The notes under the pieces are model-generated. The model saw only the letters and a program-made list of their open reading frames with translations, was not told where the DNA came from and searched no databases. 53,312 bases of DNA from Planctomycetota bacterium (GTDB lineage: Bacteria > Planctomycetota > Planctomycetia > Pirellulales > UBA1268). Positions 40,133 to 46,907 of this stretch are shown here, piece after piece; position 1 is the stretch's first letter, and each line of letters opens with the position of its first letter. The translations under genes and the position numbers were made by a program. The stretch is from NCBI GenBank assembly GCA_016872555.1, contig VGZO01000029.1, forward strand, positions 1 through 53,312, in the 5' to 3' direction.

Positions 40133-40419
40133 ATCGGTGCCCGCTGCCGGCGTGACCGGAAACGGTGCCGTCGCTCCGGCCCCGGGGCCGTCTGGATGCG
40201 GCCTGCCGGCTCACTCGTCAACGTCGGGCTTTTCCGTGGACGACGGACCGTTCACAATACCGAGCATCTCGCTGCGGGTCCCCGCCATCGACGAGGGAGG
40301 TCTCTCCCGAGTCCGAAGCCGGGCGGTCGCTGCCGGTGAGCCAGTCGATTCCCAGAAACGCCGGAGCGCGGGCGACCCTCCAAGCCGCCCGTCCGCGATT
40401 CCTCATCCACCGAGGTGCC

Positions 40420-40812
40420 ATGTCGATGTCCCCCCGTGACGAAATCTTCGAGAAGGTGAAGAGCGCCCTCGTGGACGCCCTCGGTGTCGAGGAGGACGAT
40501 GTCCGTCCGGAGGCCACCATGGTCGGCGACCTCGGTGCGGAGTCGATCGACTTCCTCGACATCGTCTTCCGTCTCGAGAAGGCCTTCGGCATCAAGATCC
40601 CGCGTGGGGAACTGTTTCCCGAGGATGTGCTGTCGAGCACCGAGTTCGTCGACAACGGCAAGTTGAACGCCGCCGGAATCGCCGCGCTCAAGGCGCGGAT
40701 GCCGTTTGCGGATCTGTCGAAGTTCGAATCCAACCCGAGCGTCCAGAACTTCGCCAACACGCTCACCGTGGAGGACATGGTCCGCTACGTGCAGACCAAA
40801 CTCGCCGCCTAG
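40420..40812 (+). CDS. Acyl carrier protein, elongated
   Basis: A carrier protein with the phosphopantetheine-attachment serine in GAESIDFLDI (S42), plus the upstream VEEDDVRPEATMVGDLG helix-loop. It has about 130 residues, against some 75-80 for ordinary AcpP. The extra length is an insert of about 45 residues after ELFPEDVLSSTEF (from residue about 75), before the closing LTVEDMVRYVQTKL. ATG at 40420 and at 40426 are both possible; the second has the better Shine-Dalgarno spacing to GAGGTG. The 287-bp gap upstream (40133-40419) shows no gene. Confidence 0.9.
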   Translation: MSMSPRDEIFEKVKSALVDALGVEEDDVRPEATMVGDLGAESIDFLDIVFRLEKAFGIKIPRGELFPEDVLSSTEFVDNGKLNAAGIAALKARMPFADLSKFESNPSVQNFANTLTVEDMVRYVQTKLAA

Positions 40813-41002
40813 CCCGCTCGGCCGTCGACAACGCCGTCGGCCGCCGGGGTGCGGCCGACGGCGATCCGGGGCACGGCTCGGCGTGTCCCGTGGTCACCTC
40901 GGTGGACGCAGCCCGTGAATGGCCTCGTCCACGGCCAGTGGGACAGCTCGCCTTCGGTGGCAGGAAGTCCTCCACAGTCTGCTCACGCCCGCGGAACAGT
41001 TC

Positions 41003-41503
41003 ATGCGCTGGTTCTGGATCGACCGTTTCGAGGAGTTCGTCCGCGGTCGGTCGGCGATCGCGATCAAGAACGTGTCGCTGGCGGAGGAGCATCTCCACGA
41101 CCACTTCCCCGGCGCCGCGCTGATGCCCAACTCGCTGGTCGTCGAGGGCATGGCGCAGACGGCCGGGCTGCTGGTCGCCGACGCGATCGAGTTCAACCGG
41201 CGCGTCGTGCTCGCCAAGGTGGCGGCGGCGGAGTTTCATTTCGACGCGATCCCGGGTGACTGCCTCCGCTACCGTGCCGAAATCCTCGACCTCAAGCCGG
41301 CCGGCTCGCTGACGCGCGTCTCGAGCCACTGCGGCGACAGGCTTCAGGGGGAGGCCGAGTTGTTCTTCGCCCATCTCGAGCCGGGCGAGGGCGTGCCCCG
41401 GCTGTTCGAGCCCGAGGAACTGCTTCGTTGGCTCGACCAGATGCACATCTACGACATCGGCAGGGACGAGTCGGGCAAGCCGCTGGCCCGGCCCGATTGG
41501 TGA
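41003..41503 (+). CDS. Second hot-dog-fold dehydratase-like protein (FabZ-like)
   Basis: A 166-residue hot-dog protein whose start MRWFWIDRFEEF matches planctomycete members I recall. The catalytic motif is EEHLHDHFPGAALMPNS (DHFP, then the EGMAQTAG helix with its glutamate). The frame extends upstream to 40919 (MASST...), but those 28 residues are not family-like. It differs clearly from the first hot-dog gene and is longer at the C-terminus. Dehydratase or related enoyl-processing activity is inferred. It lies 190 bp after the carrier protein. Confidence 0.85.
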   Translation: MRWFWIDRFEEFVRGRSAIAIKNVSLAEEHLHDHFPGAALMPNSLVVEGMAQTAGLLVADAIEFNRRVVLAKVAAAEFHFDAIPGDCLRYRAEILDLKPAGSLTRVSSHCGDRLQGEAELFFAHLEPGEGVPRLFEPEELLRWLDQMHIYDIGRDESGKPLARPDW

Positions 41504-41634: not shown

Positions 41635-42930
41635 ATGGCAGCGGGCAGGCGGCGGGTGGTGATCACGGGGATGGGCTGCGTCACGCCGCTGGGGGTCACG
41701 GTCGGCGAGATGTGGAACAACCTCCGCATCGGCGCCTCGGGAGTCGGCCCGACCACGGTCTTCGACGCCTCCCGGTTCCCGACCCGGATCGCCGCCGAGG
41801 TCCGGGGCTGGGACATCACCCACGAAGGCGAGGTGGAGAAGGATTGGCACTTCTGTGGCCGGCACACCAAGTTCGCCGCTGGCGCGGCGCTCCAGGCGAT
41901 GCGCGATGCCGGCCTCGCCGGCGGGCTTCCCGGGGATCCGGCGCGGTTGGGGGTGTACCTCGGCAGCGGCGAGGGCCAGCAGGATTTCGCGGCCTTCACC
42001 AGCATGATGACCGCGGCGATCGAGGGCGACACCCTCGACGTCGCCAAGTTCACCAAGCTCGGCCTCGAGACGCTCCATCCGCTCGCCGAGATGGAGCAGG
42101 AGCCGAACATGCCGGCCTGCCACCTCGCCGGCCTGTTCAATGCCCACGGCCCCAATCTCAATTGCCTCACCGCCTGCGCCGCCTCGAGCCAGGCGATCGG
42201 CGAGGCGGCGGAGTTGGTGCGCCGCGGCGATGCCGACGTCATGCTCTCCGGCGGCGCCCACAGCATGATCCACCCGTTCGGCGTCACCGGGTTCAACCTC
42301 CTCACCGCCCTCTCGACGCGCAACGACGAGCCGACCCGTGCCAGTCGCCCCTTCGACCGCGACCGCGACGGCTTCGTCCTCGGCGAGGGTGCGGCGATGG
42401 TCGTCCTCGAGGAGCTCGAGCACGCCAAACGGCGCAACGCGACGATCCACGGCGAGCTGCTCGGGTATGGCTCGACCGCCGATGCCTACCGGATCACCGA
42501 CACCCATCCCGAGGGGCGCGGCGCGGCCTCCTGCATCCGCATGGCGCTGGCCGACGCCGGGCTCCCCCCGGAGAAGATCGACTACATCAACGCCCACGGC
42601 ACGAGCACGGCCGTCAACGATCGCGTCGAGACGCTCGCCATCAAGACGGTGTTCGGCGAGCGTGCCTACAAGATCCCGGTGTCGAGCACGAAGAGCATGA
42701 TGGGCCACCTGATCGCCGCGGCGGGAGCCACCGAGCTGATCGTGTGCCTGCTGGCGATCCGCGACGGCCTGCTGCCGCCGACGATCAACTACGACGTCCC
42801 CGATCCCGACTGCGACCTCGACTACGTCCCCAACCGGGCCCGTGATGCGGCCTGCGACGTCGCCCTCTCCAACAGCTTCGGCTTCGGCGGGCAGAACATC
42901 TCGCTGATCGTCGGCCGCTTCGCCGGCTGA
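41635..42930 (+). CDS. Beta-ketoacyl-ACP synthase (FabF/KAS II-like)
   Basis: A 431-residue condensing enzyme that elongates acyl-ACP with malonyl-ACP. The thiolase-fold catalytic triad is present: C181 in [10 protein letters not shown]321 in NAHGTST and H358 in [15 protein letters not shown] (K353 also present). This places it in the FabF/KAS II group, close to polyketide KS-alpha enzymes. The variable region around residues 100-150 is longer than in E. coli FabF. It ends the cassette; no reductase (FabG/FabI) or acyltransferase gene is adjacent. Confidence 0.93.
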
Positions 42931-43151
42931 CCGGCGCGGCCCGGTGCCGCGCGGCAGCGGTGGTTGCCGGGAAAAACCGCCCGCCCGCCGCGGCGCCCGG
43001 GCGGGTATGGCGTTGCCCCGCCTGCCCAGGTTGCCGCCGGCAGGGTTTCCTTGAGCGGCACCGCCGGCACGACCGATACCTCCGGCACGAGCGCGGTCGC
43101 GGACCGTCGGCACGTCGCCGGCACCGTCGATCCCCCTGGGGTGCCCCGATC

Positions 43152-43679
43152 ATGAAACACGTCCTCTCGTTTCTCGCCCTCGCGGCCGTCGTCAGCCTGT
43201 CGAGCGGCTGCTCGATCGTCGACCGGCTGTTCCTCCTCAACACCGACGGACCCTACGGCCACCATGTCGGCGGTGCCTGCCAGGACGGCGCGTGTCAGGA
43301 CGGGGCCTGCCAGGACGGGGCATGTCAGGGCGGCGCCTGCCAGGATGGAGCGTGTCAGGACGGCGCGTGCCTCGACGGCGCCTGCCACGGCAGCGCCCGC
43401 CATGGGCGCGCCTGTCCGGAGGGCGTCTGTGCCGGCGGCAAGTGCAGCAAGTGTCCCGACGGCAACTGTGGCCGCTGCGCCCACTGCCGCCACCTCGGCC
43501 GCTACGGCGGTCTCGCACGCCACCACCTCTCCGCCGCCGAGAAGCAGGAGTTGATGCAGTCGGGCTATGAGAACGGTGGCCCGGCCGGCCCCCCCACCGG
43601 CGCCGTCGGCTATCCCTACTACACCACGCGCGGTCCGCGCGACTTCCTCGCCAAGTGCCCGCCGTCGATCGGGCCCTGA
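43152..43679 (+). CDS. Cysteine-rich pentapeptide-repeat lipoprotein
   Basis: A 175-residue exported protein with a lipoprotein signal (SLSSGC, lipid-anchored C20). Residues 41-80 are eight tandem copies of a pentapeptide GAC[QLH][DG] (GACQD consensus), each with one cysteine. Five more cysteines follow in a second cluster (GVCAGGKCSKC, GNCGRCAHC), then a tail of unknown fold. The repeats are tandem 15-bp units in the DNA (43272-43391). I do not recognise the family. A metal-binding or disulphide-rich outer-membrane structural protein is a guess. Confidence 0.8.
   Translation: MKHVLSFLALAAVVSLSSGCSIVDRLFLLNTDGPYGHHVGGACQDGACQDGACQDGACQGGACQDGACQDGACLDGACHGSARHGRACPEGVCAGGKCSKCPDGNCGRCAHCRHLGRYGGLARHHLSAAEKQELMQSGYENGGPAGPPTGAVGYPYYTTRGPRDFLAKCPPSIGP
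43272..43391 (+). repeat. Eight tandem 15-bp repeats coding for GACQD units
   Basis: The DNA repeats in steps of 15 bp with the codon pattern GGN GCN TGY CAG GAY, degenerate in the last two copies. It lies inside the Cys-rich lipoprotein gene and is a candidate for copy-number variation among strains. Confidence 0.8.
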
Positions 43680-43802
43680 CCGTCCGTCGCCCACGCCCTC
43701 CAGCCGGGCGGCATTGACGCACCGGCCGGCCGGCGTCACTACACTGCGTCCTCTACGGGAGCGGCGTGATGCCGCTCCGTTCCTTTCGTGGAGCACGGGT
43801 GC

Positions 43803-45374: not shown

Positions 45375-46907
45375 TCACGGGGCCGCCGCAGGGGGTTTCT
45401 CGTTCCACACCGCCAGCGGTCCGGGCGATCCCTGCGCGCGGACGCCGTTGTCGGTGAGGATCTCCTCGGTCGTGGCGATCGCCTCGCGCCGCGGGAACAC
45501 CAGCGGCGGGGCGGCCCGGCCGGCGAATTCGAAGACGACGAAGTCCTCGGTCGAGTCGCGCAGCAGCTCGACGAGGTGCCCGAGGTTCTTCACTGGCTGC
45601 TTGTCGACCGTCGCCACGATCCGGCCGACGGGGCTGTCGTAGCCGCGGGAAAGGCGGTGGGGGAACAGCGGCGAACAGATCATCACCAACCGCTCGCCGG
45701 GAAACGCCGGCCGGTCGGCGCGGCGCGTGGCGAGCGGGTTGCCGAGCGCCGCCAGCATCGCCACGACGCGGGCGTTGCCCTCGGTCGACGCGGCGTGCTC
45801 CGCGGTGGCCGCGGTGAAGACCAGCGGGCCGAACACGAAGTATTCGGGATAGTCCCCGATCAATTCGGGGAGCACCAGCGGCGGCCGGGCCGGGCAGGGG
45901 ACCTTCACCTCCTGCTCGGCGCCGTCGCGGAGGATCGAGAGCGGCAGCGTGCCGTCGGCGGCGGCCCGCTGGACGTCGTAGTGAAACGACACGCGCGGCA
46001 TCCCCTCGACCGCGATCCGCCCCTGGTCGTCGATCGGCGTCGCGCCGATCCTCGTGACCACGTCCCAGCGGCGGAGGACGGCATCGGGGCCCGGAGAGTC
46101 GGGTTCCGTGACGACGACGCCGGTCGTGCCCTTGGGAACCCGGAGCGAATCGCGGAGGGCCTGGTTCTCCAGTTTCTCGACGGCGACGGCAAGTCGCGGC
46201 TTGCCGTCGTAGCGGCCGTCGGCGATGTCGGCGAGGAAGATGTCGATCTCCTCGTTGGGGATGATGTAGCCGATGTTCTGCGCGGATTCGAGGCGGCTGA
46301 AGGCCAGCCCGATCATCTCCTCGCCGGCGATCGCCGGCCCGCCGCTGTTGCCGGGATTGATCGCGGCATCGACCTGGATCCGCAGTCCGCCGGTGGAATA
46401 GCCGTAGCCGGCAAACTCGATCCGCGACACGATCCCCTTGGTGATCGACAGCGCCGTGCCGCCGGTCGGGTAGCCGTAGGCCATCACCGTGTCCTTGATC
46501 GCCGGGAGCCGCGTCGATCGCTTCACCGCCGGGTGATCGTCGAACAGCGACTCATCGTCGAGTTTCAGGACCGCCAGGTCGATGCCCGGCCCGATCGCCT
46601 CGACCGTGGCCGCGATCTTCGCTCCGCTCTCGTGGGCCTGGACCTCGACCTGGCTGGCGTAGAGGACGACGTGTGCGTTCGTAAGGATCCGCTTGCCGTC
46701 GACGATCACACCGCTGCCGGTGACCGTGTCAGGGGGCTGCTTCGTCCACGGTTTGTTGAGATCGGGGCGGCGCAGCGTGGCGAAGATCTTGACGACCGAG
46801 CTCTCGATCACCGCCGCGCCGCCGGCGGCATCGGCGCCGGCGCTCCGTCCGGCCGAAGCCAGCGCCAGCACGGCGGTCGCGAGCAGCAGGGGGAACGGTG
46901 ACCGCAT
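45375..46907 (-). CDS. HtrA/DegP-like serine protease with PDZ-like domains
   Basis: A 510-residue periplasmic protease. The signal peptide is residues 1-24. The trypsin fold has H79 (TNAHVV), D110 (GIDLAVLKLD) and S188 (NPGNSGGPAI), a complete triad. A PDZ domain follows around 235-340 (GTTGVVVTEPDSPG, DVVTRIGATPID). The C-terminal half (about 350-510) is an extra region ending with a second PDZ-like module (VGRIVATVDKQPVKNLGHL). Its size and layout suggest a planctomycete DegP relative for envelope quality control. Nothing like a heat-shock promoter is clear upstream. Confidence 0.92.
   Translation of the reverse strand: MRSPFPLLLATAVLALASAGRSAGADAAGGAAVIESSVVKIFATLRRPDLNKPWTKQPPDTVTGSGVIVDGKRILTNAHVVLYASQVEVQAHESGAKIAATVEAIGPGIDLAVLKLDDESLFDDHPAVKRSTRLPAIKDTVMAYGYPTGGTALSITKGIVSRIEFAGYGYSTGGLRIQVDAAINPGNSGGPAIAGEEMIGLAFSRLESAQNIGYIIPNEEIDIFLADIADGRYDGKPRLAVAVEKLENQALRDSLRVPKGTTGVVVTEPDSPGPDAVLRRWDVVTRIGATPIDDQGRIAVEGMPRVSFHYDVQRAAADGTLPLSILRDGAEQEVKVPCPARPPLVLPELIGDYPEYFVFGPLVFTAATAEHAASTEGNARVVAMLAALGNPLATRRADRPAFPGERLVMICSPLFPHRLSRGYDSPVGRIVATVDKQPVKNLGHLVELLRDSTEDFVVFEFAGRAAPPLVFPRREAIATTEEILTDNGVRAQGSPGPLAVWNEKPPAAAP

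Follow-up and report, generated by a model that had tools for sequence, protein, structure and literature searches.

What is the small protein encoded at 43152..43679, in which cysteine recurs at every fifth residue, and what might its cysteines do? The gene lies in a planctomycete contig, within a 53,312-nucleotide stretch of DNA that was analyzed as a whole and that we refer to as the window. Descriptions of planctomycete envelopes have long stressed their high content of cystine and protein. To our knowledge, few of their components are known apart from the YTV proteins.

A predicted lipoprotein with a cysteine pentapeptide array

The coding sequence, on the plus strand like all features of the gene given below, was read as an ORF of 175 amino acids plus a stop, and orthologues were found. 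The protein opens with MKHVLSFLALAAVVSLSSG joined to CSIVDRLFLLNTDGPY, followed by eight GAC-xx units, four decayed units, a second cysteine cluster, the block HLGRYGGLARHHL, and the tail GPAGPPTGAVGYPYYTTRGPRDFLAKCPPSIGP. Its 19-residue signal peptide (43152..43208) ends in SSG, is kept in the alignment, and forms a confident helix in a structure model. Next come Cys20 (43209..43211), the predicted lipid-modified residue, and SIVDRLFL. Cys20 is invariant in our alignment (A2), and nearly all members of the family have a lipobox. In the window protein the lipobox reads VSLSSGC, with Ser rather than Leu at position −3, which only the relaxed pattern allows. The protein thus has the layout expected of an SPII substrate, a hydrophobic signal with a Cys-terminated lipobox behind it. 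The lipobox thus supports the original prediction of an exported lipoprotein. An AlphaFold2 model (mean pLDDT 53, pTM 0.21) was confident in the signal peptide only, was of too low quality to support a fold comparison, and appeared mostly disordered, which is consistent with a disordered protein but also with a shallow alignment.

The array itself (43272..43391) consists of eight 15-bp units encoding, in order, GACQD, GACQD, GACQD, GACQG, GACQD, GACQD, GACLD, and GACHG. The eight consecutive units with one cysteine each had been correctly described. The label GACQD is exact for five of them, but the other three differ from it. Four decayed units continue the same five-residue register (SARHG, RACPE, GVCAG, and GKCSK; 43392..43451), and in the first of these, unit 9, the Cys codon of the other units (TGC or TGT) is replaced by an Arg codon (CGC). 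The second cysteine cluster was also real: it is CSKCPDGNCGRCAHC (43443..43487) and contains a C-x2-C-x4-C motif that is present in 27 of 45 f1-type proteins. Downstream of it, the alignment marks a conserved block, HLGRYGGLARHHLSAAEK (43491..43544). The DNA periodicity was found independently by TRF, which reported the array at 15, 30, 45, and 60 bp and scored it above every other repeat in the window.

Could such an array arise by chance? Shuffling the linker 200,000 times produced no run of eight cysteines at a spacing of five, and the longest run was seven. Together with conservation across genomes, this rules out a chance or strain-specific repeat. Differences between the eight units are mostly silent (pS, 0.71; pN, 0.085), so their cysteine-bearing peptide is maintained by selection. 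The codons have drifted and the peptide has been kept. Therefore, the array is not a fresh slippage product, and recent slippage without selection was rejected on the same pS and pN values. Within the genus, linkers of 85, 70, and 65 amino acids differ by whole five-residue units. Therefore, repeat number varies between species, as the 15-bp periodicity had led the original prediction to anticipate.

The tail defines an order-wide, single-copy family

The last 33 residues of the protein (43578..43676) form a near-invariant tail, GPxGPPTGAVxYPYYTTRGPRDFLAKxPPSIGP. We built a search model on a 12-row alignment of the tail. In the genome that contains the window it was found once (E value, 2.5e-20), at the C terminus of the window protein, with the family motif YPYYTxRGPRDF. 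We extended the search to 397 genomes of the class with a completeness of at least 85%, counting rows by hand. The tail was present in 135 of 137 sampled Pirellulales genomes (117/119 from other families of the order, 17/17 from the same family, and the genome with the window) and in family f18, where 127 genomes had it; a genome with more than one copy was rare throughout. The f18 figure counts genomes with the tail, the number of f18 genomes sampled being absent from the table; we infer that f18 is Planctomycetaceae. Elsewhere among the 397 genomes, there was one marginal match only, and large families of the class lack the tail. In a wider sample of the phylum, the matches were class members plus two marginal ones, and a plasmid search with the tail gave no matches. 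The gene is therefore kept across an order and is not a peculiarity of this strain. Because the tail occurs once per genome, it is not a sorting tag common to many proteins, and a general sorting signal was discarded as an explanation.

Searches with the whole protein matched 36 of 39 relatives. In the genome collection they matched 42 loci, of which all but a few belong to Planctomycetota. Three actinobacterial records (L067, L069, and L072) matched in the Cys-repeat part only and are probably convergent low-complexity sequence. One record labeled Pseudomonadales has the tail at the end of a contig and is possibly mis-binned.

Both ends of the protein are under constraint. For most of the informative ortholog pairs, dN/dS was 0 to 0.12 in the tail and 0.03 to 0.23 at the N terminus. 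There were two exceptions. The L001-L005 pair had an N-terminal value of 0.27, and its tail comparison was left out as an anchoring error, the anchor having matched within the signal peptide. In the L013-L021 pair, silent sites of the tail were saturated and no ratio was computed.

Comparison of 41 loci from many families showed that the lipobox cysteine and the tail are kept and that linker length and cysteine number vary, from 1 to 20 cysteines. The ends are conserved, and the middle, of low complexity and rich in Cys and Gly, is hypervariable and nearly cysteine-free in some genera. Four members (L135, L136, L155, and L156) keep the tail with only one or two linker cysteines. L147 has no visible lipobox, and L027 and L141 resemble ordinary secreted proteins. 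Since the array is common and not universal, the conserved function must lie with the anchor and the tail, and the genera with one or two linker cysteines indicate that cross-linking is not the core function everywhere. Linkers rich in cysteine are found in nearly all families, and cysteine at every fifth residue occurs outside f1 too (L123/L162). The f1-type proteins have 5 to 16 cysteines; in their mature forms, 28 of the 45 have an even count and 17 an odd one. The odd counts speak against purely intramolecular pairing, although this is only a hint because the 45 sequences are related. The tail is what defines an order-wide, single-copy family, and the Cys repeats are its variable, sometimes almost absent, part. 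This is the more important side of the finding, and it had escaped the original prediction.

The window protein had no match in Pfam, NCBIfam, PHROG, or PDB. This agrees with the original prediction, which recognized no known family in the pattern, and no named, characterized family was found to include the protein. As far as could be found, the tail family is undescribed and unnamed. Pfam gave no match to the pentapeptide repeat model (PF00805) in the window protein. A weak compositional match to PF13885 (keratin high-sulfur B2) appeared in 1 of 28 family members (E value, 0.0011), and the window protein had none.

Gene neighborhood and upstream element

In the window, the gene follows Pfam-assigned genes for an acyl carrier protein (within 40165-40812), a FabA-like protein (40919-41503), and a FabF-like beta-ketoacyl-ACP synthase (41635..42930, plus strand), and it precedes a major facilitator superfamily (MFS) transporter gene at 43788. 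Between the lipoprotein gene and the MFS gene lies a terminator-like hairpin (43758..43778, plus strand), recognized by a consensus match only. Farther on, convergent with the MFS gene, a minus-strand gene (45375-46907) encodes an HtrA/Deg-like protein that combines a trypsin-like protease and a PDZ domain. ACP-FabA-FabF adjacency was seen in 12 of the 41 loci, from five families; the seven f1 loci all had the genes in one orientation, and the five others had them convergent. Other groups have a divergent ABC exporter, a CysE-like gene, or a TIM-barrel gene (6/6 f18 loci). The CysE-like serine acetyltransferase gene belongs to one f15 group that we take to be Rhodopirellula-like; in six of its seven loci (L132, L134, L151 to L153, and L163) it comes immediately after the lipoprotein gene and is read in the same direction. 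No neighbor was universal among the 41 loci.

Upstream of the gene we found a promoter-like element, GTTT-N24-CCGATA (GGGTTTCCTTGAGCGG-N12-GACCGATACC; 43039..43080, plus strand). It is present with rigid spacing at all 45 f1-type loci, a few of which have one changed letter in the first box; a first pattern search had found the GACCGATA form in 39 of the 45. By eye, the same spacing is readable upstream of family members from several further families. In form the element is like an alternative-sigma promoter, which would be its putative function. A search of the genome with the element model returned the lipoprotein locus as the top match (E value, 6e-10). The second-best match (E value, 0.006) precedes a protein without a Pfam match that, judged by eye, seems to be exported, and several weak full-model matches also precede proteins of exported appearance. 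However, the short core CAAC-N16-RCCGATA was not enriched (53 matches versus 76 in the control), and the element was absent from the two YTV stretches that we read in this genome (L240 and L241). Therefore, a shared wall regulon is not established. No upstream RNA element was found in Rfam.

Two other proteins of this genome came to light. One (L220/L242; contig 3, near 117109) is a second exported Cys-repeat protein, of 280 amino acids with CxEPxCGAGNGC units and no Pfam match, whose start is 195 nt after a GACCGATACC sequence. The other (L182; contig 21, near 34734) is an exported protein of thioredoxin-like appearance, which begins 62 nt beyond a weak match to the element.

Envelope context and related proteins

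YTV domains were found in 39 of 39 relatives, with 37 matches in the genome that contains the window. One exported YTV-repeat frame (L241; contig 7, 97000-102000) is at least 969 amino acids long, a lower bound because it runs to the end of the stretch fetched, and has 72 cysteines in those 969 residues. A second YTV-type frame (L240; contig 5), of 678 amino acids, has six. Therefore, YTV proteins within one genome differ widely in cysteine content. YTV proteins are Cys-rich cell wall components (PMC8567305) and have been proposed to affect wall rigidity (PMC10632474), and a protein sacculus with disulfide bonds has been described for planctomycetes (PMC2754498). Because of the YTV survey and this literature (PMC8567305 and PMC2754498), we would place the lipoprotein in a disulfide-bonded wall layer. 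A search for two oxidation routes, DsbB and VKOR, found neither in this genome.

The lipoprotein shares with YTV wall proteins a restriction to planctomycetes, export, repeats, a cysteine richness that is frequent among them, and the same genomes. However, it has no Pfam match to the YTV domain (PF07639); YTV proteins are much larger, have many domain copies, and are reported in Gemmataceae too (PMC8567305). The chlamydial envelope is stabilized by Cys-rich proteins, and OmcA, which occurs with OmcB, is a small Cys-rich outer membrane lipoprotein (PMC2811131). Thus, lipid-anchored Cys-rich envelope proteins are already known in kind. The window protein is likewise a small Cys-rich lipoprotein from the same superphylum, its lipid-modified cysteine being predicted from sequence; Pfam and NCBIfam scans showed no sequence relation to OmcA, and its cross-linking is putative. 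We know of no conserved tail or pentapeptide array in OmcA. Keratin-associated proteins cross-link through disulfides in short Cys-bearing repeats, but they and keratin B2 are analogies only, being eukaryotic and without a lipid anchor. Braun lipoprotein (Lpp) is a small lipoprotein with conserved N and C termini that joins membrane to wall. Unlike Lpp, the window protein does not end in Lys and shows nothing that would point to a coiled coil, and its wall attachment is hypothetical.

Possible roles

We tentatively favor a tether: anchored by lipid and mostly disordered, it would link into a disulfide-rich YTV envelope through its cysteines and bind one dedicated partner through its tail. Cys20 lipid would anchor the protein, probably in the outer membrane. 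The linker would stay largely disordered, and its evenly spaced cysteines would pair in disulfides, both among themselves and with Cys-rich YTV-type wall proteins, to build a cross-linked layer. At the far end, the tether would be fixed by the tail bound to its partner. Repeat number might then tune tether length and cross-link density, with the conserved function carried by the tail. The tether is favored by the lipobox, the invariant Cys20, the single-copy tail, the low dN/dS, and the selected cysteine register. It is also favored by the odd cysteine counts, the YTV domains in relatives, the Cys-rich YTV frame of L241, the YTV literature, and the disordered structure model. A disulfide-linked envelope role, one of several suggested originally, is thus plausible and is our leading reading. 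Counting against the tether are the genera with one or two cysteines, the failure to find DsbB or VKOR, the Ser at −3, and the atypical L147, L027, and L141. So are the YTV stretches that lack the element and the existence of Gemmataceae YTV proteins (PMC8567305) when large families of the class have no tail.

It is rather unlikely that the tail alone is the working part, binding one wall or outer membrane partner, with Cys and Gly merely tolerated in a linker that expands by replication slippage. That idea would explain why conservation is much stronger in the tail and lipobox than in the linker and why the family is kept in genera with almost no linker cysteine. However, the units retain their cysteines (low pN against high pS), and Cys-rich linkers occur in nearly all families, including the L123/L162 spacing outside f1. 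Chelation or buffering of periplasmic metal ions by the array, the CxxC-x4-C cluster, and nearby His is distinctly unlikely. Like metallothioneins, the protein is of low complexity and dense in cysteine; unlike them, it is exported and predicted to be lipid anchored, and its main cysteine spacing is five, not CxC. CxxC pairs are a usual metal ligand pattern, and the second cluster, the only part of the window protein with such spacing, recurs in f1-type proteins beside His in many; any metal binding would be mainly there. Against it, cysteine number ranges from 5 to 16 in f1 and down to 1 or 2 elsewhere with the tail retained, and no metal transport neighbor is conserved.

Neighboring genes suggest two further roles. 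A lipid- or lipopolysaccharide-linked function would fit the ACP-FabA-FabF adjacency in five families and the divergent ABC exporter in others (both from Pfam), but we consider it very improbable: each group has its own set of neighbors and the gene may point either way with respect to FabF, and positional inheritance accounts for the adjacency. Least probable is a redox sensor or envelope thiol buffer. The many thiols and the CysE-like neighbor would suit it, but that neighbor is limited to one group. Pfam found no oxidoreductase domain, and no redox enzyme gene near the window gene, leaving the proposed redox defense without real support.

We offer the tether reading in a wider form with more doubt: an undescribed core lipoprotein of Pirellulales and one related family may be a dedicated component of the disulfide wall, whose tail docks one partner and whose fast-evolving Cys linker sets cross-link density. 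Present once in almost all Pirellulales genomes and covered by no family model, the gene is a specific and testable envelope candidate. The family is also a natural series, in which anchor and tail are fixed and linker cysteine number runs from 1 to 20. If this reading is true, the lipoprotein would supply a part so far missing from the picture of the cystine-rich envelope of planctomycetes.
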